From assembly GCA_035543335.1 (NCBI GenBank), contig DASZZH010000007.1, forward strand, positions 1 to 64,000: a stretch of DNA of 64,000 nt, written 5' to 3'. The notes beneath the pieces are model-generated. The model was not told the origin of the DNA, ran no database searches, and saw nothing but the letters and a program-made list of their open reading frames with translations. Below are positions 6,572 through 61,638 of the stretch, piece by piece. A program made the position numbers and the translations under genes. This DNA comes from Burkholderiales bacterium. Its GTDB lineage: Bacteria > Pseudomonadota > Gammaproteobacteria > Burkholderiales > JAHFRG01. Position 1 is the first letter of the stretch. The number at the start of each line of letters is the position of its first letter.

Positions 6572-6572
6572 T

Positions 6573-15574: not shown

Positions 15575-15591
15575 GATGACTCCTTCGTTTT

Positions 15592-15718: not shown

Positions 15719-15734
15719 CGCAAGTCTCATGCCA
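15719..15734 (-). promoter_or_regulatory. Probable sigma-54 promoter of mshA
   Basis: Minus-strand reading TGGCAT, five bases, TTGCG closely fits the -24/-12 consensus TGGCAC-N5-TTGCW. It lies directly behind the stop codon of the upstream gene and would give a leader of about 135 bases. Pilin genes of type IV pili are often sigma-54 dependent (established for PilA systems), which supports the assignment. No sigma-54 or activator gene is present in the window. Confidence 0.65.
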
Positions 15735-16352: not shown

Positions 16353-16370
16353 AAGCCTAACCTCCTTTCT

Positions 16371-16901
16371 TTAACCCGCTTTCCAGGTGTAAGGCTCGAC
16401 CAACTGAAAAACCACCCCGCCCAATTCTTTCTTGTCCGGGGCCACGGAAACGCCCGACTCATCATTGTAGAGCAGCGTAACACGGTAGCGCACGCGTTTT
16501 AGCCCTCCCTTTCCCGGAACGAAATGCTCGCCCCTTTCAACCAGGTAAACCAGCTCGTGGGTTTTGAGGTCGTAATACCAGTTTCCCGCCGGCACTTCGC
16601 CCGGTTTGGGCTCGTAGTATTCGCCAAGGTAATTTTGCGGTTTTTCGGCAAGCCAGTTCATCGGATTGTCCTTAACCAACCCGGTCATTTCATTCACCCT
16701 GCCCTTGACGAGGTAGCTCGCGACCCTGAGGTGCAAGGCGCTGCGTATCACGCCCGCGGTCTGCTCCATTGCGGTTTTTTCCGCAAGCTCCTGGTACAGG
16801 GGAACGCGGCTCAACAGCACGGTGATCAGAAGGCTGAGAACGATGATGACGATAATCAGCTCAAACAGAGTGAAGCCGTGTTGATTAGCGTTTTGCGTCA
16901 T
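16371..16901 (-). CDS. mshB: MSHA pilin-like protein MshB
   Basis: A 176-residue prepilin from ATG 16901: leader MTQNANQHG, helix FTLFELIIVIIVLSLLITVLL with Glu at +5, then a compact globular domain with DNPMNWLAEKPQNYLGEYY and GNWYYDLKTHELVYLVER. This tryptophan-rich middle is usual for MshB-type minor pilins. The frame is open to 16952, but the extra 17 residues precede the leader and have no homologous look. A gap of 100 bases separates it from mshG. Confidence 0.82.
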   Translation of the reverse strand: MTQNANQHGFTLFELIIVIIVLSLLITVLLSRVPLYQELAEKTAMEQTAGVIRSALHLRVASYLVKGRVNEMTGLVKDNPMNWLAEKPQNYLGEYYEPKPGEVPAGNWYYDLKTHELVYLVERGEHFVPGKGGLKRVRYRVTLLYNDESGVSVAPDKKELGGVVFQLVEPYTWKAG

Positions 16902-17001
16902 AACGTTTTTTGTCAGTAACTGCCGTTCTGCGTCAGTCCAACATGCTGCCAAAAAATCGTTACTTTTGCCATTAAGTACGTCGCTAGAATAGTCAGGATA
17001 A

Positions 17002-18228: not shown

Positions 18229-18231
18229 GGG

Positions 18232-19935
18232 TCAGTCTTCCAATTGGGTCGTGATGCGCATTACTTCCGCCACAGTGGTCCGGCACTCGGTCACCAGTTG
18301 CAGGGCGTGATGGCGCAGGGTTCTGCCGCTCAACTGCTGGTGCGCGGTCTGGATGAAGTGCGCGGGATCATCGCGGCCCGCCGCCTCGACCAGCGGCCCC
18401 GTCATCTCGAGCATTTCGTAAACCGCGGTCCGTCCCTGATAGCCGGAACCATTGCAATGCGTGCAGCCGCGGCCGTGCATGAACTTGCGTTGCACCAGTT
18501 TGTCGCCCAATTCGTGCACCAGCCACGATATCTCGTGCGAATCGGGCACATAAAGCTCAGCGCAGCTTTCGCAAATCACCCGCACCAGACGCTGCGCCAG
18601 CACCGCCTGCAGCGAAGTCGCCACCATGTAGCGCGGCGCGCCCATATCAATCAGGCGAATCGGCGTGTTCGCCGCGTCCCTGGTATGCAGGGTGGAAAAC
18701 ACCATGTGTCCGGTAATCGCCGCGCGCAGGCCGATTTGCACGGTTTCCTGGTCGCGCATTTCGCCCACCAGGATGATGTCGGGGTCATGGCGCAGGCTCG
18801 AACGGAGAATTCGTGAAAAAGTAAGGTCGATTTTTTCATTGACCTGGGTTTGGTTTATGCCGGGAAGCCGGTATTCAACCGGATCCTCCACGGTGATGAT
18901 TTTCTTGTCGGGGGTATTGACTTCGGCGAGTGCCGCATAAAGCGTAGTGGTCTTGCCGCTGCCGGTCGGACCGGTGACCAGGATCATGCCGGTGGTCCGG
19001 TGGATGAGGTCGCGGAATTTGGTGAGCATGTCCTTGGGCATGCCGAGGAGATCCAGGCCGAGCAACCCGCTGCTTTGGTCGAGCAGCCGCATCGACACCG
19101 ACTCGCCGTATTGCGTTGGCATGGTGGACATGCGCACGTCTATCGGCACGTTGCGCACCTTCACGTTGAAGCGGCCGTCCTGCGGCAGGCGTTTTTCCGC
19201 GATGTCGAGACCGGACATGAGCTTCAAGCGCAGCACCAGCGCCGGCACAATTTTGACGTCGGCTTCGGTCTGGGTGTGCAGCACGCCATCAATCCGGAAG
19301 CGGATTTTCAGGCTTCTCTCCTGCGGTTCGATATGGATGTCCGAGGCATTAATCTGGGTCGCGTCCTCAAACACTGATTGCAGGAGCTTCACCACCGGCG
19401 CCTCCTCGGCCCCGAGGGCCGCTCCCAGCACGCCGAAATCAATGTAGGTGTCGCCGAGATCCTGCTCCAGCTCGCGCGCCAGGCCGCTGATTTCCTCGGT
19501 GCGGCGGTAAATCCGGTCTATGGTTCCGAGCAACAGGCTCTCGGTGACCACCGCGAGCTCGATCTCGCGTTTCAGGATGCGCGAGATTTCATCGTAAGCA
19601 ATGAGATCGGTCGGGTCCACCATGCCGACCAGATACGTGGACTTGCGTTCTTCCAGAACCAACGCACGGTAGCGGCGCGCCTGTGCCTCAGGCAGCTTGT
19701 GTATGGTATCGGCGCTGACGTTGTAGTACTTGAGGTTGATGTAGGGAATATTAAGCTGCTTGGCGAGCGCTTCGGAAATCTGCTCTTCGGTGATGAAGCC
19801 ATTTTCGAAAAGTACGCGTCCCAGCTTGCGCCCGCTGCGTTTTTGCTGTTCGAGCGCAAGTTTCAGCTGCTCCTGCGAAATCAGCTTTTGCAGCACCAGG
19901 ATTTCACCCAAACGGATTCTTTCCGGTCTGGCCAT
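18232..19935 (-). CDS. mshE: MSHA extension ATPase MshE with c-di-GMP-binding MshEN domain
   Basis: A 567-residue GspE/PilB-type hexameric ATPase powering pilus extension. The N terminus has two tandem 24-residue MshEN units, beginning with RLGEILVLQKLI (from residue 8) and KLGRVLFENGFITE (from residue 37), the pattern shown to bind cyclic di-GMP in MshE. Walker A GPTGSGKT is at 322-329, Walker B near 384-393, and a CESC plus CTHC zinc site lies in the C-terminal third. ATG 19935 is chosen because GGAGAG lies 5 bases upstream; an ATG at 19956 has none. Confidence 0.95.
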   Translation of the reverse strand: MARPERIRLGEILVLQKLISQEQLKLALEQQKRSGRKLGRVLFENGFITEEQISEALAKQLNIPYINLKYYNVSADTIHKLPEAQARRYRALVLEERKSTYLVGMVDPTDLIAYDEISRILKREIELAVVTESLLLGTIDRIYRRTEEISGLARELEQDLGDTYIDFGVLGAALGAEEAPVVKLLQSVFEDATQINASDIHIEPQERSLKIRFRIDGVLHTQTEADVKIVPALVLRLKLMSGLDIAEKRLPQDGRFNVKVRNVPIDVRMSTMPTQYGESVSMRLLDQSSGLLGLDLLGMPKDMLTKFRDLIHRTTGMILVTGPTGSGKTTTLYAALAEVNTPDKKIITVEDPVEYRLPGINQTQVNEKIDLTFSRILRSSLRHDPDIILVGEMRDQETVQIGLRAAITGHMVFSTLHTRDAANTPIRLIDMGAPRYMVATSLQAVLAQRLVRVICESCAELYVPDSHEISWLVHELGDKLVQRKFMHGRGCTHCNGSGYQGRTAVYEMLEMTGPLVEAAGRDDPAHFIQTAHQQLSGRTLRHHALQLVTECRTTVAEVMRITTQLED

Positions 19936-20027
19936 ACTCTCTCCAAATGACATCAACAGCGTTTTGCGGCAAGCATGCGGCGTGCTAGCGCTAACTTAGT
20001 CTTTTTTGCCTTATGATACAAGCTCAA

Positions 20028-20255
20028 GGAACTTCTGATTATGTCCTACACGTGCGTGACGATGCGCTTTCCGGCTGTCGGTTGCAAAGCGAGGAGCGCC
20101 GTTGGGCCGTTCCCCAATAAGCGACGAGCGACTAAGCCCGGCGGCCGGGCGCCCCGGGCTCGCGTTACTAACTCGGTAGCGCCACGTCTTCGCGCCTTGC
20201 ATGCGGCCGCTCCTCGCCCGCAACGCGTCACGCGGAGGACTTAATCAGAGGTTCC
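20028..20255 (-). repeat. Repeat family B, copy B1 (228 bp)
   Basis: Bounded by 19-base terminal inverted repeats: a variant end at 20028-20046 and the consensus GGAACCTCTGATTAAGTCC (minus-strand reading) at 20237-20255. Read on the minus strand it starts with the TCCGCG...GCGTTGC module shared with B2 and B3. It lies between divergent mshE and trmL and ends two bases before the trmL ATG, so the AGAGG inside its terminus is the likely Shine-Dalgarno of trmL. No ORF, no transposase. Confidence 0.85.
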
Positions 20256-30764: not shown

Positions 30765-31259
30765 GGAACCTCTGATTAAGTCCTCCGCGAATTGCGTTGC
30801 CGGCAAAATGCGGATGGATGCAAGGCGCGCGACGAAGGTCGTACTCGAAGTACGACACCGAGGAGGGCCCGCGCAGCGTCCGCACCTGCGAAGCTGTGCA
30901 GTGAAGCGGGCCAGCGCTCGCCTTCGCGGTCGCACGTGCCGAGGCTCCACGCTCCGGCGAGCACGACGCAGACACCGCATTTTACCGCAACCCGGATGGG
31001 ACGGCTGCCGCGACACGGTGAGCGAAGCTTGGGGTGCGGGAGCGGCAGCATGGGCGCCCCCGTTTAACAGTGATTCTTGCGGCAGCTTGCGCCCCTGCCC
31101 GCACCACGCTGCGCGAGACTGAGTCCGGGGCGCTTGTCCGGGCGGTCTGCTTTGTCGCTCGGCTTGCCAAGGGGGTCTGGCCATTGGCTGCGCCTCGCTT
31201 CGCGCATCCCCTTCCGGAAAGCCGCCGTCGCAACCACGTGGGACTTAATCAGAGGTTCC
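30765..31259 (+). repeat. Repeat family B, copy B2 (495 bp, longest copy)
   Basis: Perfect 19-base terminal inverted repeats GGAACCTCTGATTAAGTCC at 30765-30783 and 31241-31259. After the left end comes the TCCGCG...GCGTTGC module shared with B1 and B3, then GATGCAAGGCGCGCGACGAA shared with family A, and the hairpin CGTACT/AGTACG (30840-30854). The right part shares GGGCGGTCTGCTTTGTCGCT and TTCCGGAAAGCCG with family A. It lies between maf (stop 6 bases away) and slmA, on whose transcript it would lie if the two are co-transcribed. No convincing ORF. Confidence 0.87.
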
Positions 31260-31264: not shown

Positions 31265-31876
31265 CTAGAGGACCTCGAAGCCTTCGTTTTTCAACATGTC
31301 CACCAGTGCGATCAGTGGCAAGCCTACCAATGAAGAGGGGTCGTCGCCCCGCATGCTTTGGAGGAGCGCGACGCCCAAGCCTTCGGTTTTGGCGCTGCCT
31401 GTGCAATGGTAGGGCTGTTCCCTGGCCAGATAGCCGGCAATCTGCGCATCGCTGTAATCGCGCAGCCTGACCTGGTAAGGCACAACCCGAGTTTGCAGGT
31501 TTCCGGTTCGAGCATTAAGCAGACATATGGCAGTGTGAAACATCACGGTCTTGCCGCGCATGAATTGTAATTGCTTCAACGCATTATCATGGGTGTGTGG
31601 TTTGCCCAGCAGCGTGCCGTCCAGGGCTGCGACCTGGTCGCAGCCAATGATGAGCGCTTGCGGGTATAGGTTTTTCACCGCCAGGGCTTTAGCTTGGGCT
31701 AGACGAGCGGCGGTTTGTTCGGGCCGCTCGCCCGGCAAGGGCGATTCATCAACGTTGGGAGCGGCGGCGGAGAAGGGGAGTTGCAGGCGCTCTAACAGCT
31801 CGCGGCGATAAATAGAAGTCGAAGCTAAAACCAGCTGTGGAGAGCTCAAATTTTTCTCGTAAGTTTTTGACACCAA
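31265..31876 (-). CDS. Maf-like nucleotide pyrophosphatase (YceF type)
   Basis: A 203-residue Maf/HAM1-fold house-cleaning enzyme that hydrolyses modified nucleotides; the YceF subgroup prefers 7-methyl-GTP. Visible motifs are LVLASTSIYRRELLERLQLPF, NVDESPLPGERPEQTAARLA, IIGCDQVAALDGTLLGKP and the C-terminal SLVGLPLIALVDMLKN. The start is not firm: TTG 31876 or the adjacent GTG 31873. It is divergent from yceD, the usual arrangement at the head of the rpmF-plsX-fab operon. Confidence 0.92.
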   Translation of the reverse strand: MVSKTYEKNLSSPQLVLASTSIYRRELLERLQLPFSAAAPNVDESPLPGERPEQTAARLAQAKALAVKNLYPQALIIGCDQVAALDGTLLGKPHTHDNALKQLQFMRGKTVMFHTAICLLNARTGNLQTRVVPYQVRLRDYSDAQIAGYLAREQPYHCTGSAKTEGLGVALLQSMRGDDPSSLVGLPLIALVDMLKNEGFEVL

Positions 31877-31904
31877 ACTGCAAAAATAATATCATGCGCG
31901 CCTT

Positions 31905-32411
31905 ATGCCTGAACAGGTCGCTGTCGACAGCCTGACATTTGCCCGCGGCGCGGAAGCTCTGCGTGGTAAAATACCCGTCGCCGACTTGCTGCGTTTGCGC
32001 ACCTATTTATATTCTACGGAAGGTGTCATCGAATACGAGTTGCGCGGCACGGTAAATTCCCGGGGCAAGCCGCAATTGCATCTAGCAATTCAAGGCAGGA
32101 TTTGTCTCAAATGCCAACGCTGCCTGGGCGAGCTGGCGCAGGATGTGGATCGGGTTTGCGATCTGCTGCTGATCGAAAACCAAAATGATTTTTCCGAAGT
32201 TACGGAAGAAGACGAAACCGTAGACTGCATCCCGGCGGAAACGGAGCTGGATGTGCTGGCCTTGCTCGAGGAAGAAATCATATTGGGGTTGCCGCTTTCT
32301 CCGAGGCATGACACGGCGGCATGTCGAATCAGTGAAGAGTATGATGGCAGCCGGGCCGGCCGCACGGCTTTTGCGCCGCTCGCGGCGCTGAAAAATCGGA
32401 ACACTGAATAG
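31905..32411 (+). CDS. yceD: YceD/DUF177 family protein
   Basis: A 168-residue protein with the DUF177 zinc-like motif CLKCQRCLGEL near the middle (about 67-77), an acidic stretch EVTEEDETVDCIP, and LDVLALLEEEIILGLPLSPRH. It is linked to 23S rRNA accumulation in E. coli (family knowledge). It lies 9 bases upstream of rpmF, as in most proteobacteria, and heads the plus-strand fatty-acid operon. Confidence 0.92.
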   Translation: MPEQVAVDSLTFARGAEALRGKIPVADLLRLRTYLYSTEGVIEYELRGTVNSRGKPQLHLAIQGRICLKCQRCLGELAQDVDRVCDLLLIENQNDFSEVTEEDETVDCIPAETELDVLALLEEEIILGLPLSPRHDTAACRISEEYDGSRAGRTAFAPLAALKNRNTE

Positions 32412-32420
32412 GAGTTTGTC

Positions 32421-32600
32421 ATGGCAGTTCAGCAAAACAAGAAATCCCCGTCGAAGCGCGGCATGCACCGTGCGCATGATTTTCTGACCAACCCGCCGCT
32501 GGCAGTCGAGCCCACCACCGGCGAAGTCCATTTGCGCCACCACATCAGCCCTAACGGCTATTACCGTGGCAAGAAAGTAACTCGCGGCAGGGGCGAATAG
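32421..32600 (+). CDS. rpmF: 50S ribosomal protein L32
   Basis: A 59-residue basic protein translated from ATG 32421 to TAG 32598-32600. It begins [20 protein letters not shown] and ends with [13 protein letters not shown], matching bacterial L32 without the zinc Cys pairs found in some lineages. AGGAG lies 6 bases upstream. The position between yceD and plsX is highly conserved. Confidence 0.97.
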
Positions 32601-32633
32601 TCGCCAAACCGGGCGACCCCTGCCTGCACGGGA

Positions 32634-33650
32634 ATGGATATCACGGTAGCCATCGATTGCATGGGCGGTGACCACGGCCCGCAGGTTACGGTGCCGGCAG
32701 CGGTAAAATTCCAGCAACGCAATCCCGATACGCAAATCGTCCTGGTCGGCCTGCGCGACGTCATCGAACCGGAGTTGCGTGCCATGCGCGCCGAAACCGG
32801 TCCACGGCTGCGCGTGCATCACGCCAGCGAAATAGTGACCATGGATGAACAACCGGTCCTCGCCCTGCGTGGCAAAAAAGATTCCTCGATGCGCGTGGCG
32901 ATCAATCTGGTGAAAAACGGCGAAGCCCAAGCCGGTGTCAGCGCCGGTAACACCGGCGCGCTCATGGCCATTTCCTGTTTTGTGCTGAAAACCCTGCCGG
33001 GCATCGAACGCCCCGCCATTGCCACCGCATTGCCCAGTTTGCGCGGTCAAACTTATGTCCTGGATCTGGGCGCCAACGCCGACTGTACCCCGGAACACCT
33101 GCTGCAGTTCGCCATCATGGGCGCCACCCTGGTTTCCGCGGTGGAGCACAACGAACGTCCGAGCATCGGCCTGCTCAATATCGGCGAGGAAGAAATCAAG
33201 GGCAACAAAGTGGTGAAACGGGCGGCGGAACTGCTGCGCGCAAGTGGGCTCAATTTCTACGGCAATGTCGAGGGCGACGATATTTTTAAAGGCACCACCG
33301 ATGTCGTAGTGTGCGACGGTTTTGTCGGCAACGTGGCGTTGAAGACTTCCGAAGGCATGGCGCAGATGCTGGGGACCTTCCTGCGCGAGGAATTCGAGAG
33401 CAGCCTTTTGACCAGGATAAGCGCCTGGTTCGCCATGCCGGCGCTCAAAGCCTACAGGCACCGGGTTGATTACCGCCGCTACAACGGCGCGAGTCTGCTC
33501 GGTTTGCGCGGCGTAGTGATAAAAAGCCATGGGTCAGCGGATAGCTTTGCTTTTGGCTTTGCCATCCGGCGCGCAGTGGAGGAGGTGCAAAACGGCGTCC
33601 TGCGTCGCATCAGCGAGCGCATGGCGCCGATTCACCCGGAGCCGGTTTGA
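32634..33650 (+). CDS. plsX: Phosphate acyltransferase PlsX
   Basis: Makes acyl-phosphate from acyl-ACP for phospholipid synthesis at the cytoplasmic membrane surface. The 338-residue protein has [11 protein letters not shown] at the N terminus, [58 protein letters not shown] and the C-terminal [14 protein letters not shown]. Length is as usual. Its TGA overlaps the ATG of fabH. Confidence 0.97.
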
Positions 33651-34606
33651 TGTACTCGCGCATTGTCGGCAGCGGCAGCTACCTGCCGCAAAAAATCCTC
33701 ACCAACCGCGACCTTGAAACCATGGTGGATACCTCGGATGAGTGGATTTTCACCCGAACCGGTATTCGTCAGCGCCATATCGCGGCAGACAACGAAAACG
33801 CGAGTGATCTGGCGCTTAACGCCAGCAAGAAAGCGATGCAAGCGGCGGCAGTGAAAGCGGGCGATATCGACTTGATCATCGTCGCCACCACCACACCGGA
33901 CATGATTTTTCCCAGCACCGCCTGCATCCTGCAGTCCAAGCTCGGCATCAAGAACTGCCCGGCTTTCGATGTGCAGGCGGTGTGCAGCGGTTTTGTGTAT
34001 GCCTTGGCCACCGCCGACCTGTTTATTCGCTCGGGCAAGAACCGTTGTGCTTTGGTCGTGGGGACTGAAATTTATTCACGCATTCTGAACTGGAATGACC
34101 GCGCCACTTGCGTGCTGTTCGGCGATGGCGCGGGCGCGGTTATCGTAAAAGCCGGCGAAACGCCTGGAATCCTCTCCACCCATTTGCATGCGGACGGCAG
34201 CTACCACAAAGCCCTGGCTGTTCCGGGCAGCGTGTGCGGCGGAAAGGTGACGGGCAATCCGCAGGTGGTGATGGAAGGCAATGCGGTGTTCAAGTTTGCA
34301 GTGAAGGTAATGGAAGAAATGGTGGATGAGGCCCTCGCCGCCAACAAGTTGCAACAAAGCGATATCCAGTGGCTGATTCCGCACCAGGCAAATATCCGCA
34401 TCATTCAGGCAGCCGCCAGGAAACTGGGTTTAGGCATGGATCGGGTGGTAGTGACGATAGATCGCCACGCCAACACTTCCGCTGCCTCGATTCCGCTGGC
34501 TTTGGACGACGCGGTGCAGGATGGCCGTATCAAGCGTGGCGAGCTGATTCTCATGGAAGGCGTGGGCGGGGGATTTACCTGGGGCTCGGTTCTGTTGCGC
34601 TGGTAA
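33650..34606 (+). CDS. fabH: 3-oxoacyl-ACP synthase III (FabH)
   Basis: Condenses acetyl-CoA with malonyl-ACP to initiate fatty acid elongation. From ATG 33650 the enzyme has 318 residues with catalytic Cys112 in DVQAVCSGF, His in [12 protein letters not shown] and Asn in [13 protein letters not shown]. The N-terminal GSGSYLP and [15 protein letters not shown] are typical. It is translationally coupled to plsX through a shared A in TGATG. Confidence 0.97.
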
Positions 34607-34616
34607 TTAAATAAAC

Positions 34617-35546
34617 ATGAAATTCGCATTCGTCTTCCCCGGCCAAGGCTCGCAGTCGGTTGGCATGATGCGCGGCTTTGCCGATTTACCCGTGGTACGC
34701 CAGACCTTTGATGAGGCTTCAGGCATTCTCAATCAGGATTTGTGGACGCTAGTGGAAAACGGGCCGGAAACGGCATTGAGCCAGACGGTCAATACCCAAC
34801 CGGTGATGCTGATTGCCGGCATCGCAGTTTATCGCGCCTGGCGAAAGCTGGGCGGCGCAGCGCCCCACTTGCTGGCCGGCCATAGCTTGGCGGAATATAC
34901 TGCCCTGGTCGCGGGCGGAGCGCTGGATTTCGCCGAAGCGTTGCCGCTGGTGCGATTCCGGGCGGAAACCATGCAGCAAGCCGTACCCGAGGGAATGGGG
35001 GGAATCGCCGCAATACTCGGCCTGGATGAAATAAAGATTAAGGAAATCTGCTTGGAAGCGGCGCAGGGCGAAGTCCTGGAGGCGGTGAATTTCAATTCGC
35101 CGGGCCAGATTGTGGTCGCCGGGCATAGAACAGCGGTGCTGCGCGGCATGGAGCTGGCCAAGACCAAAGGCGCAAAGCGCGCCATCATGCTGCCGATGAG
35201 CGCGCCTTCGCATTGTTCGCTGATGCGCGGAGCGGCGGTAAAGCTGAAAGAACGTTTGCAATCAGCGGCAATCAAGCCACCCCAAATCCCGGTAGTGCAT
35301 AATGTGGACGTGAGCGAACATGCGGAGCCCGACGCGATCAAGGAAGCGCTGGTACGACAACTGTATAATCCAGTGCGCTGGGTGGAAACCATCCGGGCTT
35401 TGGCGCAAAGAGGCGTAACGCATGTCGCGGAATGCGCGCCGGGCGGAGTGCTGGCCGGCCTCAACAAGCGAATTGCTCCCGCTCAGGAAGTATTTGCGTT
35501 CAACGATGGGGCGGCGCTCAAGCAGGCGTTGGCGGTACTGGCCTGA
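34617..35546 (+). CDS. fabD: Malonyl-CoA-ACP transacylase
   Basis: Loads malonate onto acyl carrier protein. The 309-residue enzyme carries FPGQGSQSVGM, QPVMLIAGIA, the nucleophile Ser90 in LAGHSLAEYTALV, and the second active-site His in MLPMSAPSHCSLM. It lies 10 bases after fabH and 24 bases before fabG in the same operon. Confidence 0.97.
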   Translation: MKFAFVFPGQGSQSVGMMRGFADLPVVRQTFDEASGILNQDLWTLVENGPETALSQTVNTQPVMLIAGIAVYRAWRKLGGAAPHLLAGHSLAEYTALVAGGALDFAEALPLVRFRAETMQQAVPEGMGGIAAILGLDEIKIKEICLEAAQGEVLEAVNFNSPGQIVVAGHRTAVLRGMELAKTKGAKRAIMLPMSAPSHCSLMRGAAVKLKERLQSAAIKPPQIPVVHNVDVSEHAEPDAIKEALVRQLYNPVRWVETIRALAQRGVTHVAECAPGGVLAGLNKRIAPAQEVFAFNDGAALKQALAVLA

Positions 35547-35570
35547 CTTTTTCACGACAACTCACAAAAA

Positions 35571-36311
35571 ATGCTGGAAAACCAAATTGCTTTAGTCACA
35601 GGCGCGAGCCGCGGGATCGGGCAGGGCATTACTTTGGAACTGGGCAAACAGGGCGCAACCGTGATTGGCACCGCGACCACGGATAACGGCGCGCTGGCCA
35701 TCAGCGCCTATCTGGCGAAGGCGGGGATCAAGGGCGCCGGAATGGCGCTCAATGTCAATGACGGCGAAGCGATTGAACACCTGCTCGAGGACCTCCAGAA
35801 CCGCCATGGCGCGATCTCGATTCTGGTCAATAATGCCGGCATTACCCGCGACAATCTGCTGCTGCGCATGAAGGACGAGGAGTGGGACGACATCATGTCG
35901 ACCAACCTGAAATCGGTATTCAGGCTATGTCGCGCATTATTGCGCCCCATGGTAAAAGTACGCTACGGTCGCATTATCAACATTACTTCCATTTCCGGGG
36001 AAATCGGCAATCCCGGTCAAGCCAATTACGCCGCGGCCAAGGCCGGAATCGCAGGGTTCAGTAAGTCACTGGCACGCGAAGTAGCGAGCCGCAATATCAC
36101 GGTTAATTGCGTCGCGCCCGGCTTTATCGACACCGACATGACCCGGGCGCTCGACGAAGCGCAACGGCAGGCGCTGCTGCAGCATGTGCCGATGGGGCGA
36201 CTGGGGCGGGTCGAAGAAGTTGCCGTAGCTGTGGCTTTCCTGGCTTCAAATGGCGCCGGTTACATTACCGGCTGCACCCTGCAGGTGAACGGCGGGATGT
36301 ACATGAATTAG
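35571..36311 (+). CDS. fabG: 3-oxoacyl-ACP reductase
   Basis: NADPH-dependent reductase of the fatty acid elongation cycle, 246 residues, short-chain dehydrogenase fold. Seen are the cofactor motif TGASRGIGQGI, NNAGITRDNLLLRM, the catalytic Ser in NITSISGEIGNPGQ, and Tyr/Lys in NYAAAKAG, plus the C-terminal GYITGCTLQVNGGMYMN typical of FabG. It contains a KOPS-like octamer GGGCAGGG at 35619 pointing toward dif. Confidence 0.97.
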   Translation: MLENQIALVTGASRGIGQGITLELGKQGATVIGTATTDNGALAISAYLAKAGIKGAGMALNVNDGEAIEHLLEDLQNRHGAISILVNNAGITRDNLLLRMKDEEWDDIMSTNLKSVFRLCRALLRPMVKVRYGRIINITSISGEIGNPGQANYAAAKAGIAGFSKSLAREVASRNITVNCVAPGFIDTDMTRALDEAQRQALLQHVPMGRLGRVEEVAVAVAFLASNGAGYITGCTLQVNGGMYMN

Positions 36312-36329
36312 ACAGCGACCATTGCGATT

Positions 36330-36356
36330 TTGTAATCAGGGTAAATTTGGTAGAAT
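36330..36356 (+). promoter_or_regulatory. Possible promoter of acpP
   Basis: TTGTAA (36330-36335), a 15-base spacer, and TGGTAGAAT with -10 hexamer TAGAAT (36351-36356) and an extended -10 TG. The short spacer weakens the -35 call; an extended -10 promoter does not require it. The 110-base gap before acpP and the need for abundant carrier protein make an internal promoter likely. Confidence 0.4.
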
Positions 36357-36421
36357 AGTCGAATTTGCTGCAGCCCAAGATTGAATTGCTTTGACCACCA
36401 CGGAACCAGAAAGGGATTTAG

Positions 36422-36658
36422 ATGGAAAACATAGAGCCACGCGTAAAAAAGATTGTTGCTGAACAACTCGGCGTCAACGAGGGCGAAGTCAAGAACGAAT
36501 CTTCGTTTGTGGACGATCTGGGCGCGGATTCGCTAGACACAGTTGAGCTGGTGATGGCGCTGGAAGAGGAGTTTGAGTGCGAGATTCCCGACGAAGAGGC
36601 GGAAAAAATCTCCACCGTGCAGCAAGCCATTGACTACATCAAAACCCACCTAAACTGA
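36422..36658 (+). CDS. acpP: Acyl carrier protein
   Basis: A 78-residue acidic four-helix protein that carries growing acyl chains on a phosphopantetheine arm attached at Ser37 in the motif [10 protein letters not shown]. The ending [13 protein letters not shown] is typical. The holo form needs AcpS, whose gene is at 49.1-49.5 kb in this window. It lies between fabG and fabF in the usual order. Confidence 0.98.
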
Positions 36659-36695
36659 TTCCCCCGCGTTTTAACCCTTCGCACCTGGAGTAATC

Positions 36696-37934
36696 TTGTC
36701 CAGACGCAGAGTCGTCATTACTGGCCTCGGTATCGTGTCACCGGTCGGTATTGGCGTCGCTGAAGCGTGGCAAAACATCGTCGCGGGGGAACCGGGCATC
36801 ACCCGAATCACCCGCTTCGACGCCTCAGGCTTTGCTTCGCAGATTGCCGGCGAGGTAAAAGGTTTCAATCCCGAGAACTATCTTTCAGCGAAAGATGCCC
36901 GCCGCATGGATACGTTCATTCACTACGGGATGGCCGCGGCCATTGAAGCGATCAAAGATTCGGGAATCGAAATCACGCCGCAGAACGCCGAGCGCATCGG
37001 CGTCAACATCGGGTCGGGCATCGGGGGCTTGCCAATCATCGAGGAAACCCACAACGCCTTCCTCAAGGGCGGGCCGCGCAAAATTTCACCGTTCTTCATC
37101 CCCATGACCATCATCAATATGATTTCGGGCAACCTCTCCATTCTGTATGGATTGAAAGGCCCAAATCTGGCGATGGTCACCGCCTGCACCACGGCCACGC
37201 ATTGCATCGGCGATTCGGGGCGGCTCATCGAATACGGCGACGCGGACGTGATGGTAGCCGGCGGCTCCGAATCCACTTTGACGCCGCTGGCCATAGGCGG
37301 CTTCTCTTCCGCCCGTGCGCTGTCCACGCGCAACGACGATCCGGCCACCGCCAGCCGGCCGTGGGACGTAGGGCGCGACGGTTTTGTGCTCGGCGAAGGG
37401 GCGGGGGTGCTGGTGCTCGAGGAAATGAAGCATGCTCAAAAACGCGGCGCGCGTATTTACGCCGAGCTTGCCGGTTTTGGCATGAGCGCCGACGCCCACC
37501 ATATGACTGCACCCTGTGAAGACGGCGAAGGCGCGGCGCGCTGCATGGCGAATGCCTTGCGCAACGCCAGACTCAACCCGGATCAGGTGGATTATGTCAA
37601 CGCCCACGGCACTTCAACGCCGCTGGGCGATATTGCCGAAACCGTGGCGGTCAAGCGCTGTTTTGCCGATCACGCAAAAAAAATCGCAGTCAGTTCCACC
37701 AAATCCATGACCGGGCACCTGCTTGGCGCGGCGGGAGGGGTGGAAGCGGTATTTTCAACGTTGAGCATTCATCACCAGATCGCCCCTCCCACCATCAACC
37801 TCTTCGAGCAGGATCCGCAGTGTGATCTCGATTACGTGCCGAACACCGCGCGCAACATGAAAATCAGGGCGGCCCTGTCCAATTCGTTTGGTTTCGGCGG
37901 CACCAACGGCACGCTGGTTTTTACCAAGGCTTGA
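36696..37934 (+). CDS. fabF: 3-oxoacyl-ACP synthase II (FabF)
   Basis: Elongating condensing enzyme, 412 residues. Catalytic Cys164 lies in [10 protein letters not shown], the two His in [11 protein letters not shown] and [12 protein letters not shown], and the C-terminal [15 protein letters not shown] is present. The start codon is TTG at 36696, supported by GGAG seven bases upstream and by the family N terminus [17 protein letters not shown]. It follows acpP after 37 bases. Confidence 0.97.
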
Positions 37935-38020
37935 TACGGCGGCGCCTTTTCCTTTTTCGGCAACCGGGTTAAATTAGTTTCATTTATTACGGCTTTTTGC
38001 GTGCTGCCGGTGAGTTCAAA

Positions 38021-38833
38021 ATGATTCTAGTCAACGGCGTTCAAACCGACTCGTTAAGCGTGCACGACCGCGGCTTGATGTACGGTGACGGCGTGTTCCG
38101 CACCCTGCGTGTAAGCCACGGCGTAGCGCTGTGCTGGCAACGCCATTACCGCAAACTGCTGGCGGACTGTGCGGCGCTCAACATTAATTGCCCTTCCATC
38201 GCGGTTTTAAGCATGGAAGTGGAAGCGGTTACAAAAGCCAATCCTGAATGCGTCGTCAAAATCATCATCACCCGTGGTGCCGGAACGCGGGGTTATCGTG
38301 TCGCGCCTGGCGCCACACCCAACCGGGTCGTTATGTCGAGCCCGCTTCCCGACTATCCGGCAAGTCACTACGAGCAAGGTGTGAAGGTGCGGATCTGTGA
38401 TTTAAGATTGGGACTGCAACCGCGGCTTGCCGGGATCAAGCATCTCAACCGGCTGGAAAACGTATTGGCTCGCCAGGAATGGAACGACGAAGCCATTGCC
38501 GAAGGACTGCTGCTCGATGGTGAAGGCCATGTCATCTGCGGTACCATGACCAACCTGTTCACGCTGAAAGGCGCCGAGCTATGCACACCGGATCTGTCCC
38601 GCTGCGGGCTGGCCGGAGTGCAGCGCGAGCGCGTTCTGGAGCGGGCGGGCAAAGCAGGCATTGCCTGCAAAGTCAGAGCTATTTCCTTGCCTGAGCTCCT
38701 GCGAGCGGATGAAGCATTTCTGACCAACAGCGTAATCGGCGTGTGGCAGATCAGGGAAATCGGAGAGAAACGCTGGGAACCAGGCTGTTTTGCTCCCATG
38801 GTCCGCGACTGGCTTGACCGCGATTGTGACTAA
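38021..38833 (+). CDS. pabC: Aminodeoxychorismate lyase
   Basis: PLP-dependent enzyme releasing p-aminobenzoate for folate synthesis, 270 residues from ATG 38021. Fold-type IV motifs are DRGLMYGDGVFRTLRV, the PLP Lys in LAGIKHLNRLENVLARQE, and GTMTNLFTL. The upstream extension to 37997 has no family resemblance. It overlaps mltG by eight bases; the pair pabC-mltG is conserved in proteobacteria. Confidence 0.94.
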   Translation: MILVNGVQTDSLSVHDRGLMYGDGVFRTLRVSHGVALCWQRHYRKLLADCAALNINCPSIAVLSMEVEAVTKANPECVVKIIITRGAGTRGYRVAPGATPNRVVMSSPLPDYPASHYEQGVKVRICDLRLGLQPRLAGIKHLNRLENVLARQEWNDEAIAEGLLLDGEGHVICGTMTNLFTLKGAELCTPDLSRCGLAGVQRERVLERAGKAGIACKVRAISLPELLRADEAFLTNSVIGVWQIREIGEKRWEPGCFAPMVRDWLDRDCD

Positions 38834-39836
38834 ACGCGCCATCCGGATTCTGGGTTTTCTTCTCGTTGCGCTTTTGGCCGGAGCAGCGGGCTGGCTGGCT
38901 TACTATGCCAACACGCCGTTGCAATTATCAAATACCCCGGTCGAATTCAGTTTGAAACCCGGCAGCAGCCTGAGGAGCGCGGCAAAACAACTCACCGAAA
39001 TCGGCGTACTGCCTGAGCCGTGGAACTTTGTGGCGCTGGGAAGAACCTTGGGCAAGGCCGGGCAAATCAAGGCCGGCAACTATGAGCTGAAAGGCGAGTT
39101 AAGCCCTTATTCCTTGCTCATTAAGCTCACCGAGGGCGATTTTACGCAGAAGGAAATCACCTTTATCGAAGGTTGGACTTTCAGTAAAGCGCGCCAGACG
39201 CTCAACAACCACCCGAGTATCCGTCATGACACCGTTAAGATGAGCGAGAAAGAAATACTCGAGAGCATCGGCGCGACGGAAGAGTCCACCGAAGGTTTGC
39301 TTTTCCCCGACACTTATCATTTCAGCGAGGGCGTAAGCGATGCTACCATCCTCAAGCGGGCTTATCAGACCATGAAATCCAATATCAGTACCGCCTGGGC
39401 TGGGCGCGCGCCGAACCTGCCTTTCGCCAATCCCTACGAGGCATTGATTCTTGCCTCCATCGTCGAAAAGGAAACCGGCCAGGCGACCGAGCGGCGCATG
39501 GTCGCAGTGGTTCTGATAAACCGGCTGCGGCTCGGCATGAAATTGCAGGCCGATCCTACGGTAATTTACGGGATAGGCGAGAGCTTTGACGGCAATATAC
39601 GCAAGCGCAATTTGGAAACGGATACGATTTACAACACCTACACTCGAATTGGATTACCGCCGACGCCGATTGCCATGCCCGGGCTGGCCTCGATTCAGGC
39701 GACACTTAATCCGGCAAACAGCAAAGCGCTATATTTCGTCGCGCGCGGCGACGGCACGTCGTATTTTTCTGATACGCTGGAAGAACATAACCGCGCCGTG
39801 ACAAAATACCAGAAAAGCGGGCGGCGCAAACCTTGA
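38826..39836 (+). CDS. mltG: Endolytic murein transglycosylase MltG (YceG-like)
   Basis: Cleaves nascent glycan strands and is thought to terminate peptidoglycan polymerisation. A start at GTG 38826 gives 336 residues: one N-terminal transmembrane segment ([21 protein letters not shown], about 5-25), a LysM-like subdomain, and the catalytic domain with Glu in [43 protein letters not shown] and a C-terminal LYFVARGDG. Coupled to pabC and followed 13 bases later by tmk. Confidence 0.94.
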
Positions 39837-39849
39837 ACGGGAGCAGGCT

Positions 39850-40479
39850 TTGGCGGCAAAACCGAAAAGCAAAGGTAAATTCATCACGCTTGAAGGTATA
39901 GACGGCGCGGGCAAAAGCACGCATTTGCCGTGGATTGCGGAGCAACTGCGCGCGCGCCAGCTTGAGGTGGTGGTGACGCGCGAGCCTGGCGGGACGTCGC
40001 TAGGTGAAAAACTCCGGGTAATCCTGCTCGGCCAAACCATGCACCCGGAAACCGAGGCATTGCTCATGTTTACCGCGCGCCGCGAGCACCTGGATAAAAT
40101 AATTCTTCCGGCCTTGGCGCGCGGTGCCTGGGTGGTTTCCGACCGCTTTGCCGACGCCAGCTTCGCCTACCAGGGCGGGGGCAGGGGAGTGGCCGTAGAG
40201 AAACTGGAAATTCTGGAAAAATGGGTACAGCAGGGCTTGCAGCCGGAACTCACGCTGTTGTTTGATGTGCCGCCCGCTGTCGGCAAAAAGCGGCTGGTAA
40301 ATAATCCTGGACTGGACCGCTTTGAGCAGGAGCAGGAAATGTTTTTCGAGAAGGTGCGCAAAGCTTATTTGCAGCGGGCCAGGCGCCACCCTGAACGCCT
40401 GCACGTAATCGACGCCACGCAGGGCCTGTCAGCCATTAGGAAACAACTTGAAGTAATTATTATAACATGCTGTTTTTGA
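39850..40479 (+). CDS. tmk: Thymidylate kinase
   Basis: Phosphorylates dTMP to dTDP. The 209-residue P-loop kinase has [14 protein letters not shown] (Walker A), the DR-like [14 protein letters not shown], and [17 protein letters not shown]. The start is TTG 39850 preceded by GGGAG; no better ATG exists before the P-loop. It overlaps holB by 13 bases. A GGGCAGGG octamer at 40179 inside the gene points toward dif. Confidence 0.96.
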
Positions 40480-41483
40480 GTAAATATATTTGGCATAAAC
40501 CAGTGTGGGACGCGCTTGTTTCCCGCAGCCAAGGCTGGCCGAACGCAGTCCTTATAAAAGGCAGGAAAGGCATCGGCAAGCTCGCCTTCGCGCAAGCGCT
40601 TTCACAGTATCTGCTGTGCGAAGCGCGAGAGCCTCTGGCTGCTTGCGGCAAATGCCAAAGCTGTCTGTGGTTTGCTGGCGCCAATCATCCAGACTTCCGC
40701 CTGCTCGAACCCGCCGCATACAGCGCGGCCGCCGGCGAGGAAGAAGCCGAAGAGAAAAAATCCGAGAAAGCGGCCAATCAAATCAGCGTCGAGCAAATCC
40801 GTGCACTCGATGATTTCGTCAATCTCACCAGCCACCGCAACGGCTACAAGGTCATTCTGATTCACCCTGCGGAGGCGATGAATCCGCATGCCGCCAATGC
40901 GCTTCTCAAGACTCTGGAAGAGCCGCCGGGGAACACCGTTTTCGTCCTGGTTTCCCACGCGCCGCAGCGCCTGTTGCCGACCATCATCAGCCGCTGCCGC
41001 GGCATTCCACTGCCGGTCCCCGCCGCCGCTGTTTCATTGCAGTGGCTGCAAGGGGAGGGCGTCGCCCATCCGGAAATCGCGCTGGCGCAGGCAGGCTACG
41101 CGCCGCTTGCCGCACTGGAAGTTAAAGAGGAGGAAAAACAAATCCAGCGCCGCGATTTTCTCGAACGCCTCGGCGCAGCCGTTCCGAATCCGCTGGCATT
41201 GGCCGAAAGCGCATTGCAATACCCGCTTCCTGACGTGGTGAATTGGCTGCAAAAATGGGTTTGCGACCTCGCTTACTGCAAATTCACCGGTAAAATCCGT
41301 TATCATTTAGACTTTGCGGACAAGCTGGAGCGCCTTGCCGAAAAAGCGGACGCCCTCGGACTCATGCGATATTACCGCGAACTCCTGATCGCGCAGCGCG
41401 CCGTGCGGCACCCGCTTAACCCCAAGCTGGTATTGGAGCAGCTTGCATTGTCTTATTATTGCTTGGTGCTGAAAAATGAGTGA
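40467..41483 (+). CDS. holB: DNA polymerase III delta-prime subunit
   Basis: Clamp-loader subunit, 338 residues. The Walker-like loop GRKGIGK is degenerate as expected for delta-prime, a zinc module with CGKCQSC follows at about residues 60-66, then the AAA segments [28 protein letters not shown] (pieces [11 protein letters not shown] and LLKTLEEPP) and [12 protein letters not shown]. An acidic Lys/Glu-rich insert (about 90-105) is unusual but not disruptive. It lies between tmk and a pilZ gene, the standard order. Confidence 0.95.
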
Positions 41484-41844
41484 TGCCCCCAAACTGCTAG
41501 CCGCCTCGCGGCCAGGCGTGTTGTCGCTGAACATCCGCGAGAAGTCGGCGCTCTATGCCTCCTACATGCCGGGTTTGAAAAACGGCGGCATCTTCATTCC
41601 CACCAGCAAGCCTTACCGTGTCGGCGATGAAGTGTTCATGCTGTTAAGCTTAATGAATGACCCCAACAAACTGCCGGTGGTGGGCAAGGTGGTATGGATT
41701 ACGCCTTCCGGCGCCCAAGGTAACAAGACGCAGGGGATAGGCGTGCAATTCAACAACGATGCAAGCGGCATTGCGGCGCGCACCAAGATAGAAGGGCTGT
41801 TGGGCGACTACCTGCAATCCAGCCGGCCGACGCACACCATGTAA
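41476..41844 (+). CDS. PilZ-domain protein (atypical, c-di-GMP motif lacking)
   Basis: A 122-residue PilZ fold protein with NGGIFIPTSKPYRVGDEVFMLL, KVVWITPSGAQGNKTQGIGVQF (quoted in pieces VGKVVWITP and GIGVQF) and few other features. The RxxxR motif that binds c-di-GMP in classical PilZ proteins is not seen, as in the PilZ proteins next to holB in pseudomonads that support type IV pilus function without binding the nucleotide. It overlaps holB by eight bases. Confidence 0.9.
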   Translation: MSDAPKLLAASRPGVLSLNIREKSALYASYMPGLKNGGIFIPTSKPYRVGDEVFMLLSLMNDPNKLPVVGKVVWITPSGAQGNKTQGIGVQFNNDASGIAARTKIEGLLGDYLQSSRPTHTM

Positions 41845-41867
41845 CCCGGGCTCGCCCGGCTTCTGGC

Positions 41868-42632
41868 ATGTTTGTCGATTCCCACTGCCACATCAATTTT
41901 CCTGAGCTCGCGGACAACGTTCCCGGAGTGCTGGCGAAAATGCGCGAGAACCGGGTGAGCCACGCGCTCTGCGTCAGCGTCAATTTCCCCGAATTTCCCC
42001 AGGTGCGCGCGCTCGCCGAGCAATATCCCAACATCTACGCTTCCGTAGGAGTGCATCCGGATTACGAGGAAGAAGGGGAGGTAACGATCGACGAACTGCT
42101 CAAGCGCGCCGACCATCCTAAAATTATAGCCGTCGGCGAAACCGGGCTTGACTATTACCGCCTGAAAGGCAATCTGGAATGGCAGAAGCGGCGCTTCCGC
42201 AGCCACATCCGTGCCGCCAAGGCCTGCTGCAAGCCACTTATCATCCACACCCGTGAAGCGGCGGCGGATACTTTAAGCATTATGCAAGAAGAGGGCGCGT
42301 CCGAAATCGGAGGTGTCATGCACTGCTTCACCGAAAGCTGGGAAATGGCGCAAGCCGCCATGGCGATGAATTTTTATATTTCCTTTTCCGGCATCGTGAC
42401 GTTCAAGAATGCAGTTGCATTGAGGCAAGTCGCCACGCAAGTGCCGCTTGAACGCATGCTGATTGAAACCGACTCTCCCTTTCTGGCGCCGGTACCGTAC
42501 CGTGGCAAAACCAACCAGCCTGCCTTTGTCCGCCATGTCGCCGAGGAAATCGCCAGGTTGCGCAACATCCCGCTCGAAGACGTTGCCAGCGCCACCACAC
42601 AGAACTTTTTCAGGCTTTTCAGACTTCAGTAA
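41868..42632 (+). CDS. tatD: TatD-family metal-dependent hydrolase
   Basis: A 254-residue TIM-barrel DNase/hydrolase (YcfH-like). Metal ligands appear in DSHCHINF, VGETGLDYYR, LIIHTREA, GGVMHCFTESW and LIETDSPFLAPVPYRGKTN. It closes the plus-strand operon: 67 bases after its stop is the dif site, and beyond it all genes for 3.6 kb are on the minus strand. I see no strong intrinsic terminator, only paired TTGGGCCCA palindromes at 42641 and 42679. Confidence 0.95.
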   Translation: MFVDSHCHINFPELADNVPGVLAKMRENRVSHALCVSVNFPEFPQVRALAEQYPNIYASVGVHPDYEEEGEVTIDELLKRADHPKIIAVGETGLDYYRLKGNLEWQKRRFRSHIRAAKACCKPLIIHTREAAADTLSIMQEEGASEIGGVMHCFTESWEMAQAAMAMNFYISFSGIVTFKNAVALRQVATQVPLERMLIETDSPFLAPVPYRGKTNQPAFVRHVAEEIARLRNIPLEDVASATTQNFFRLFRLQ

Positions 42633-42699
42633 GTAGGGTTTTGGGCCCATGGTTGCCTCCAAAAGAAATATAAAATGGTTGGGCCCAATGCTATCAATA

Positions 42700-42727
42700 A
42701 CTTCGTATAATGTATATTATGTTAAAT
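42700..42727 (+). other. dif: dif site (XerC/XerD recombination site, replication terminus)
   Basis: Twenty-eight bases arranged as XerC arm ACTTCGTATAA, six-base spacer TGTATA and XerD arm TTATGTTAAAT. The spacer and XerD arm are identical to E. coli dif, and the XerC arm fits the more variable proteobacterial consensus. Gene orientation flips here from plus (31.9-42.6 kb) to minus (42.8-46.4 kb and most of 47-59 kb), as expected at a terminus where two replication forks meet. It lies in an AT-rich 187-base gap. Confidence 0.92.
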
Positions 42728-42819: not shown

Positions 42820-42911
42820 TGGTGCCCGGAGCCGGAATCGAACCGGCACGGGCTGGATTAGAGCCCGAGGGATTTTAAGTCCCTTGTGTCTACCAATTCC
42901 ACCATCCGGGC
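42820..42911 (-). tRNA. tRNA-Leu (anticodon UAA), CCA encoded
   Basis: On the minus strand the 92-base sequence has a 7-bp acceptor stem GCCCGGA/TCCGGGC with an A discriminator and encoded CCA. The D-arm contains GGTAGAC, the anticodon loop ACTTAAAATCC holds TAA, a long class II variable arm GGGCTCT...CCC follows, and the T-loop is GGTTCGATTCC. It is the last of three tRNAs in the order Gly-Cys-Leu behind pgsA, the same order as glyW-cysT-leuZ in E. coli. Confidence 0.97.
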
Positions 42912-42940
42912 GCAGGACAGTTCGGGCGGTTCTTGTATCT

Positions 42941-43014
42941 TGGAGGCGGGGGTCGGAATCGAACCGGCGTACACGGCTTTGCAGGCCGCTGCATGACCAC
43001 TCTGCCACCCCGCC
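42941..43014 (-). tRNA. tRNA-Cys (anticodon GCA), CCA encoded
   Basis: Seventy-four bases on the minus strand with acceptor stem GGCGGGG/CCCCGCC (U discriminator), an anticodon arm with CTGCAAA containing GCA, T-loop GGTTCGATTCC and a 3' CCA. It is 29 bases from tRNA-Leu and 70 bases from tRNA-Gly. Probably co-transcribed. Confidence 0.97.
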
Positions 43015-43084
43015 GTTTTTACGGGTCATTAAAACTAAACAGGGAAAACGAAATATTGATTCATTGGTTCGTTTTCCCCGGAAT

Positions 43085-43160
43085 TGGAGCGGGAAACGAG
43101 GTTCGAACTCGCGACCTCAACCTTGGCAAGGTTGCGCTCTACCAACTGAGCTATTCCCGC
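43085..43160 (-). tRNA. tRNA-Gly (anticodon GCC), CCA encoded
   Basis: Seventy-six bases on the minus strand: acceptor GCGGGAA/TTCCCGC with U discriminator, D-arm AGCTCAGTTGGTAGAGC, anticodon loop CTTGCCAAG with GCC, T-arm GAGTTCGAACCTC and encoded CCA. It follows pgsA by 50 bases as in the enterobacterial uvrC-pgsA-glyW operon. Confidence 0.97.
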
Positions 43161-43210: not shown

Positions 43211-43783
43211 TCACGCGCGTTTCAACGCCTGCGGCATGGCTTTTTTCAGATAGTAGGCCATTGACCACAAAGTCAAAATCGCCGCAATGTAAATGCACCA
43301 GGTGCCGATTAGCTGGGCGTTCAGCATCCATGGCAAAGTATCGTGATAAAGCAGCAGCAAAATTGCCGCCATTTGCGAAATCGTTTTGATTTTGCCGAAA
43401 AAGGACACCGCCACGCTCTTGGCGGCGCCGATTTTCGCCATCCATTCGCGCAGCGCCGAAACCGCAATCTCACGGCCGATGATGATGAAAGCGATCAGCG
43501 CATCAACGCGACCAAGGTTGACCAGGATAATCAACGCGGCCACCACCATTAGCTTATCGGCGACCGGGTCGAGGAACGCACCAAAAGCCGAGGTTTGGTT
43601 GAGCGTGCGCGCGAGATAGCCGTCGAGCCAGTCGCTGATCGCGGCTACGGCAAAAATCGCTGTTGCCAGCAGGTTTTTATAATGCATGGCCAGCACGGCA
43701 TCGGAGAGATAGAAGATTCCGACAAACAGCGGAATCAGAAGAATACGCAGCCAAGTGATGAGATTGGGTATGTTGAATGGCAT
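43211..43783 (-). CDS. pgsA: CDP-diacylglycerol-glycerol-3-phosphate 3-phosphatidyltransferase
   Basis: Catalyses the committed step of phosphatidylglycerol synthesis in the inner membrane. The 190-residue protein has about five membrane segments and the CDP-alcohol phosphotransferase signature in SDWLDGYLAR followed by GAFLDPVADKLMV, giving the DGxxAR-x8-GxxxDxxxD pattern. It lies 11 bases downstream of uvrC and upstream of three tRNA genes. Confidence 0.96.
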   Translation of the reverse strand: MPFNIPNLITWLRILLIPLFVGIFYLSDAVLAMHYKNLLATAIFAVAAISDWLDGYLARTLNQTSAFGAFLDPVADKLMVVAALIILVNLGRVDALIAFIIIGREIAVSALREWMAKIGAAKSVAVSFFGKIKTISQMAAILLLLYHDTLPWMLNAQLIGTWCIYIAAILTLWSMAYYLKKAMPQALKRA

Positions 43784-43794: not shown

Positions 43795-45585
43795 CTAATG
43801 CAGCTCGCGGTAGATTATTTCGGCCAATTTGCGACTGATGCCCTCCACCATCGCGAGGTCGTCCACACTCGCCGCAAGCACCCCTTTGAGGCCGCCAAAC
43901 CGCGACAGCAGTTTTTGCCGGCGCTTCGCGCCCACGCCGCCGATTTTTTCCAGTGAGGACGTGACGCGCGTCTTGGCGCGCCTGGCGCGGTGGCCTTGAA
44001 TCGCGAAGCGGTGCGCTTCGTCGCGGATTTGCTGAATCAGATGCAAACCGATGTTATCCGGAGCCAATTGTAGCGGGTTTTTATCCCCGGGAAAAATGAG
44101 TTGTTCCAGCCCGGGTTTGCGCTCCGCACCCTTGGCCACGCCGACAAGATAAACGTCATTGAGCCCGAGCTCGGCGAAGATTTCCTGGGCAACGCTCACC
44201 TGTCCCTTGCCGCCGTCCACCAAGATCAAATCCGGAACCCTGCCCTCCCCTGCGGAAATTTTTCGGTAGCGGCGCGTCAGCACATTGCGCAGGGCGGCGA
44301 AATCATCGCCTGGCGTTATGCCCTCGACGTTATAACGCCGGTATTCCCCGGATTGCATGGCGAGATTGTCGAACACCACGCAAGCACCCAAGGTGGCTTC
44401 GCCCATGGTATGACTGATATCGAAGCATTCGATGCGTTGCACGCTGGAAGGCAGATCCAAGGCTTGCTGCAGTGCCTGCATCCGCGCTTCCTGGCTCGCC
44501 TGGCTTTGGTATTTCTGTTCAAGCATAAGGGTTGCGTTCTTGACCGCCATATTGAGCCAGACGCGGCGCTCGCCTGTCGTCCGCGTCACCACCTGAGTCT
44601 TGCGTTTGCCCAACAGCACCCCGAGCGCGTCGCGATCAACCGGCTGATTGATCACTATCGTATCCGGGAGTGGACGATAAAGATAATGTTGCGCCAGAAA
44701 CGCCTCCAGCGCCGCCTGCGGCTCATAACCCTCGGCGTTTTGCGGAAAGAAGCTTTTGTCGCCAAGATGCCGGCCGCCTCTTACCATCACCAGATTCACG
44801 CACAGAATTCCGCCGCGGGAAACGCAGGCAATCACGTCCGCGTCCGCGCTGCTGGCGCTGCTTACGAATTGCTTTTCCTGGACTTTGCGTAACGACTGCA
44901 TCTGGTCACGGTAAAGCGCGGCGGTTTCATAGTTCAGCGCGTTCGCGGCTTCCTGCATTTTCTGGCCGAGAATACGCAGTACTTCGTTTTGCTTGCCGTC
45001 GAGAAATAACGCGGCATTGGCCACATCCGCTCGGTAACTTTGTTCCTTGACCAGGCCTACGCATGGCGCGGTGCAGCGTTTGATTTGGTGCAGCAGGCAG
45101 GGGCGCGAGCGATTATTGAACACGCTGTCTTCACAAGTACGGATGCGGAATACCTTCTGCAGCAACTGAATGCTTTCCCTCACCGCCCAGGCATTCGGGT
45201 AGGGACCAAAGTAACGGTTTTTCTTGTCGAGCGCGCCACGGTGAAAGCCCAGGCGTGGATAACGGTGCTCGGTGAGGATAATGTACGGATATGATTTATC
45301 GTCACGAAACAATATGTTGTAGCGTGGAGTTAAACTTTTAATTAAATTGTTTTCTAAGAGCAGCGCTTCGCCTTCGGAACGGGTGACCGTGGTTTCGACT
45401 TGAGTGACTTGCGCCATCATCAGCCGGGTGCGTGGCGATTGCAGGTTTTTCCGGAAGTAGGAGGAAACGCGCTGGTTAAGGTCGCGCGCCTTGCCGACAT
45501 AAATCACCTCTCCAGCCGCGTTGAGCATGCGATACACCCCGGGCAGATTGGGCAGCCCGGCGATGACTTCTTTGGGATTGAGCAC
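43795..45585 (-). CDS. uvrC: UvrABC excinuclease subunit C
   Basis: Makes both incisions in nucleotide excision repair. The 596-residue protein has the GIY-YIG nuclease (GVYRMLNAAGEVIYVGKA, about 15-32), a Cys-containing central region (CEDSVFNNRSRPCLLHQIKRCTAPC in pieces RPCLLHQIKRC and TAPCVG), a UVR segment near 205-240, the RNase H-like domain with ECFDISHTMGE and LVDGGKGQ, and C-terminal helix-hairpin-helix motifs (IGGVGAKRRQKLL, FGGLKGVLAAS). Length is normal. Confidence 0.97.
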   Translation of the reverse strand: MLNPKEVIAGLPNLPGVYRMLNAAGEVIYVGKARDLNQRVSSYFRKNLQSPRTRLMMAQVTQVETTVTRSEGEALLLENNLIKSLTPRYNILFRDDKSYPYIILTEHRYPRLGFHRGALDKKNRYFGPYPNAWAVRESIQLLQKVFRIRTCEDSVFNNRSRPCLLHQIKRCTAPCVGLVKEQSYRADVANAALFLDGKQNEVLRILGQKMQEAANALNYETAALYRDQMQSLRKVQEKQFVSSASSADADVIACVSRGGILCVNLVMVRGGRHLGDKSFFPQNAEGYEPQAALEAFLAQHYLYRPLPDTIVINQPVDRDALGVLLGKRKTQVVTRTTGERRVWLNMAVKNATLMLEQKYQSQASQEARMQALQQALDLPSSVQRIECFDISHTMGEATLGACVVFDNLAMQSGEYRRYNVEGITPGDDFAALRNVLTRRYRKISAGEGRVPDLILVDGGKGQVSVAQEIFAELGLNDVYLVGVAKGAERKPGLEQLIFPGDKNPLQLAPDNIGLHLIQQIRDEAHRFAIQGHRARRAKTRVTSSLEKIGGVGAKRRQKLLSRFGGLKGVLAASVDDLAMVEGISRKLAEIIYRELH

Positions 45586-61308: not shown

Positions 61309-61638
61309 GGAACCTCTGATTAAGTCCCGCGCGGTTGCGACGGTGTTGCAATCCGGGTGCAGGGCGAGGCGTGAGGAGCGCCGTTTGGTAGAGGCCAAAC
61401 CAGCGACGAACAACAAAGCCATGTGCCCGGGCGCCCCGGACTCGGTCTCGCGCAGCGTGGTGCGGGCAGGGGCGCAGAAGGCTGCGTTCGATAGCATGGA
61501 GCGGAGCTTGTGCGGCTGCTCCCGCAAGCGGGCCTTGGGCTAACGGGTCGCAGCCGCACTACGACCTTCGGCGCGTGCCTCGCATCCATCCGCATTTTGC
61601 CAGCAACGCAATCCGCGGAGGACTTAATCAGAGGTTCC
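61309..61638 (-). repeat. Repeat family B, copy B3 (330 bp)
   Basis: Perfect 19-base terminal inverted repeats GGAACCTCTGATTAAGTCC at 61309-61327 and 61620-61638. Read on the minus strand it begins with TCCGCG...GCGTTGC, GCAAAATGCGGATGGATGC, then GAAGGTCGTA, closely following B2. A second shared block near 61425-61480 corresponds to 31085-31140 of B2. It lies between convergent nadB and the ygfX-like gene, ending three bases before the latter's stop codon. No credible ORF. Confidence 0.87.

Follow-up and report, generated by a model that had tools for sequence, protein, structure and literature searches.

A single-copy dif site and probable replication terminus beside a MITE-associated polarity break in a Burkholderiales bacterium

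Positions 42700-42727 (plus strand) of a 64,000-nucleotide contig stretch from a Burkholderiales bacterium, referred to here as the window, are a genuine, ordinary, single-copy dif, the standard chromosome-dimer resolution site. Together with XerC, XerD and FtsK encoded elsewhere in the same genome, it very probably (probability about 0.96) represents the standard chromosomal dimer-resolution system of this bacterium and a marker of its terminus, and the conflicting polarity signals to the left of 31 kb would then not reflect a displaced dif. Judging from gene order, we take the host to be betaproteobacterial.

Results

Sequence, position and uniqueness of the dif site

The site reads ACTTCGTATAATGTATATTATGTTAAAT and consists of the XerC arm ACTTCGTATAA (42700-42710), the hexamer TGTATA (42711-42716) and the XerD arm TTATGTTAAAT (42717-42727). 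It is identical to E. coli dif at 24 of 28 positions, including the complete hexamer and XerD arm, which confirms the identification made in a preliminary description based on the letters of the window. The site is low in G+C (5 of 28 bases) and intergenic, lying between the tatD stop codon (42632) on the left and tRNA-Leu (42820) on the right, and zero dif matches are expected by chance in shuffled window sequence. The genome totals 2,246,682 bases on 41 contigs and, allowing up to three mismatches, contains no other match, three short contigs (C4, C5 and C37) being represented by N in the sequence scanned; the preliminary description had predicted that a second dif would not be found.

At the same tolerance, 102 of 200 genomes from its order carry a dif match, and 100 of these 102 carry exactly one. 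Other members of the order share the 26-base core, and the exact 31-mer starting at 42697 was found in 14 Gammaproteobacteria stretches, including Methylococcaceae, Oceanospirillales-type and Acinetobacter records. The XerC arm of E. coli, GGTGCGCATAA, differs from ACTTCGTATAA by four bases. Because the same 31-mer is shared by these 14 stretches, we regard the arm as an ordinary variant, and no functional effect of the differences is expected.

The region also resembles loxP, the target of Cre in phage P1. Positions 42697-42709 (ATAACTTCGTATA), which overlap the XerC arm, equal a loxP arm exactly, and 27 of 34 loxP positions match the dif region in reverse complement, whereas the right arm has no match; an action of Cre is not claimed. 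Although ATAACTTCGTATA belongs to a common dif variant, it connects dif and lox neatly.

Genes flanking dif

To the left, dif is preceded by tatD (41868-42632, plus strand), the last gene of a plus-strand block at 31265-42632 with the order maf (minus strand)-yceD-rpmF-plsX-fabHDG-acpP-fabF-pabC-mltG-tmk-holB-pilZ-tatD, in which rpmF and acpP were placed by the usual operon order rather than by a scan. To the right follow, all on the minus strand, tRNA-Leu(TAA), tRNA-Cys(GCA) and tRNA-Gly(GCC) (42820-43160), pgsA (43211-43783) and uvrC (43795-45585). Between 31.9 and 42.6 kb, genes are thus on the plus strand, and between 42.8 and 59.4 kb most are on the minus strand. The flip in gene direction at dif described earlier therefore stands for these two segments, but it is only local, as nearly every gene between 2.3 and 25 kb is again on the minus strand. 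Over 2-31 kb as a whole, minus-strand genes predominate and replication polarity is reversed.

Three further observations concern the outer parts of the window. An all-minus cluster resembling an MSHA-type pilus or type II secretion system (secretin, AAA, T2SSE, T2SSF, N_methyl, DUF6701) occupies 2332-19956. At the contig end, positions 1-151 and 2001-2151 form an inverted repeat of 97% identity with rpe, apaG and a methyltransferase gene between its arms. At the other side, a phosphoenolpyruvate-synthase-like gene (62036-64431, of which 64001-64431 lie beyond the window on the same contig, C7) is present as two overlapping reading frames of 264 and 549 aa, possibly due to a frameshift.

Skew and octamer polarity in the window and in relatives

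Overall GC skew in the window is -0.0105 to the left of dif and -0.007 to its right. The cumulative skew drops to a minimum at 30.7 kb, climbs until about 40.5 kb and falls slightly thereafter; a turn predicted at 42.7 kb was not observed, since the window has its minimum at 30.7 kb and shows no clear maximum at dif. When gene direction is taken into account, four-fold-site skew assigns clear right-arm polarity to 0-30.8 kb (bootstrap P(>0)=0.000) and no clear polarity to either 31-42.7 kb or 42.7-61 kb.

The window contains 13 GGGNAGGG octamers of the FtsK-orienting type, eight pointing towards dif and five away from it, no better than chance (p=0.58), so the strongly asymmetric count anticipated around dif is absent from the window as assembled. 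Those pointing towards dif include 35619-35626, 40179 and 41052 on the plus strand and, on the minus strand, two overlapping octamers at 44238-44250 together with 48878 and 61222. The list in the preliminary description lacks 16697 (minus, away), 44243 (minus, towards), 61222 (minus, towards) and 62998 (plus, away). With octamers at 8:5 and a skew without a turn, the evidence then drawn from within the window would not by itself show a terminus at dif.

As a control, we sampled ten relatives of the same order in which dif lies within a long contig, oriented each from XerC to XerD and analysed 40 kb on either side. Every one of the ten has positive skew to the left of dif and negative skew to its right, and 82 octamers point towards dif and 13 away. 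Because polarity at dif is uniform in this control, the left 31 kb of the window are the exception. In stretches of the own genome, GGGNAGGG lies on the G-rich strand at a ratio of 95:35, the values for three control octamers being 90:70, 130:100 and 131:101; this strand bias is the polarity expected for an FtsK-orienting sequence. GGGNAGGG is not over-represented in number (237 occurrences vs 283 for the mirrored pattern).

A MITE at the polarity break

The skew break at 30.7 kb coincides with an IS5-like MITE of 495 bases at 30765-31259 with ends GGAACCTCTGATTAAGTCC, where synteny with both of the congeners compared (G001 and G002) is also broken. The window holds further family members with the same ends at 20028-20255 and 61309-61638. 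Several dozen copies, falling into several size classes between about 230 and 790 bases, are present in 1.9 Mb of the own genome, and the congeners have the family too. Many copies are flanked by YTAR-like four-base repeats, as for IS5-type elements. A test of whether the MITE at 30765-31259 is a chimera of two copies gave no sign of one, as its left half, its right half and the whole element all match one full-length copy on contig C25 at about 93%.

Gene order in congeners

The region from maf to tatD (31281-42632) is collinear in G001 and G002. In both, the genes at 27.0-30.75 kb (ctpA, carbonic anhydrase, slmA) are on other contigs, the slmA-MITE-maf junction is absent, and rne shares a contig with maf, about 4 kb to its left. 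In the own genome this rne belongs to contig C3, where rluC, a HAD gene and finally a MITE cut off by the contig end lie outward of it. Contig C28 ends with argB, a nucleotidase-like reading frame and a MITE; argB and this nucleotidase gene usually neighbour slmA in bacteria of this kind. The partners expected for slmA on one side of the slmA-MITE-maf junction and for maf on the other are thus found at the ends of C28 and C3, which stop in the same repeat. The left 31 kb of the window have been juxtaposed by rearrangement or misassembly at the MITE, which accounts for the conflicting skew and octamers to the left of 31 kb, and the maf-tatD block (31265-42632) is the true left flank of dif.

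On the right, both congeners are collinear with the window between the tRNAs and about 62.1 kb and lack the 61.3-kb MITE; this copy is a plain insertion, and we rejected it as the boundary of an inverted segment on account of the collinearity across it. The collinearity stops close to the split phosphoenolpyruvate-synthase-like gene. In G001, the order dif-tRNA-Leu-pgsA-uvrC is kept, with 1.67 kb between dif and tRNA-Leu vs about 90 bases in the window. No dif was found in G002, even with a looser pattern. There, one contig match ends at tatD, and tRNA-Cys opens the next one, at the very first base of a different contig, so the site is probably missing because it falls in the contig gap between tatD and the tRNAs.

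Polarity around dif with reversed C3

Congener gene order suggests reversed C3 as the left neighbour of maf. We therefore joined reversed C3 to the window at 31.26-62.1 kb, a composite chosen after the skew conflict had been seen and in which some 1.7 kb that should separate the rne cluster from maf are unaccounted for, so that C3 and maf only presumably abut. Its cumulative skew maximum is 2.4 kb from dif, in a genome that is itself unclosed (41 contigs). Outside MITEs, its octamers favour dif at 14:2 to the left of the site and 4:1 to its right, 18:3 in total (p=0.0015). With the skew sign change and octamer counts of the ten relatives, the composite supports the earlier proposal of dif as a terminus marker. 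The site most likely marks the replication terminus here, although its position in the own genome is one that we infer.

A dif that recently moved off the terminus, with the left 31 kb correctly placed and truly belonging to the opposite arm, would agree with the right-arm polarity of 0-31 kb, with the nearly neutral 31-61 kb and with the inverted MITEs that bound the latter segment. We nevertheless consider such a dif-terminus mismatch very unlikely. The 61.3-kb insertion in otherwise collinear sequence argues that 31-61 kb did not move as one piece, the neighbours of the fab block and of the tRNA side resemble those in the congeners while the slmA-maf junction is the odd one, and reversed C3 restores normal polarity. 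Less likely still, and rejected, is the reading that an integrated element using Xer (an IMEX phage or island) left a dif-like attachment site here in place of a chromosomal dif: IMEX elements do leave dif-like sites (PMC5357621) and the spacing of dif and tRNA-Leu differs in G001, but an integrated element leaves two sites where this genome has one, and the flanks are housekeeping genes collinear with the congeners from maf to tatD and from the tRNAs to 62.1 kb.

A skew maximum near 190-200 kb on contig C25 was also rejected as a rival terminus: it has no dif, and the same contig carries dnaA together with a skew minimum at 257 kb, a distance of only about 60 kb. The sign of the skew on this contig switches from plus to minus close to 190 kb, some 65 kb short of dnaA, a polarity break that may reflect rearrangement or misassembly.

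The XerCD-FtsK machinery

The genome encodes an XerC of 305 aa on contig C28 (TIGR02224, 367.9 bits, cut-off 335.15) and an XerD of 312 aa on contig C16 (TIGR02225, 392.4 bits, cut-off 329.6), each above the cut-off of its own NCBIfam model and below that of the other's. An FtsK with a gamma domain is encoded on contig C21 (FtsK_gamma, 98.3 bits, above the Pfam cut-off).

Discussion

Proteobacterial dif sites are non-coding and low in G+C, have a conserved XerD site, occur in single copy and lie near the cumulative skew maximum, at a median distance of 7.3 kb (PMC2731167). All of these defining features are present here, save that the skew maximum is seen near dif only on the composite. The 11-6-11 layout, the hexamer, the XerD arm, the intergenic position, the single copy and the presence of XerC, XerD and the FtsK gamma domain are shared with the E. 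coli and proteobacterial dif/XerCD systems (PMC2731167), and the XerC arm is where the site departs from E. coli dif.

By analogy with the E. coli system, whose FtsK mechanism has been reviewed (PMC5357621), XerC and XerD would bind, respectively, the left and the right arms of the two dif copies on a chromosome dimer. The GGGNAGGG octamers would steer FtsK towards dif, where it would draw both copies together, and the gamma domain would activate XerD for cleavage, so that the dimer may be resolved to monomers at division.

The biology of this dif is that of the textbook, and its identification fixes the dimer-resolution site and the probable terminus for this genome. It also illustrates that a correct dif beside a repeat-mediated join can fail both skew and octamer tests, so that congener gene order is needed as a check. 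At the join at 30765-31259, a real, recent MITE-mediated rearrangement may have put DNA of reversed polarity within 12 kb of dif in this lineage, a scenario to which we give slightly less than even chances. If it is true, reversed DNA would lie close to the zone in which FtsK is steered, and nature would here have tested the tolerance of the dif region to disturbance.
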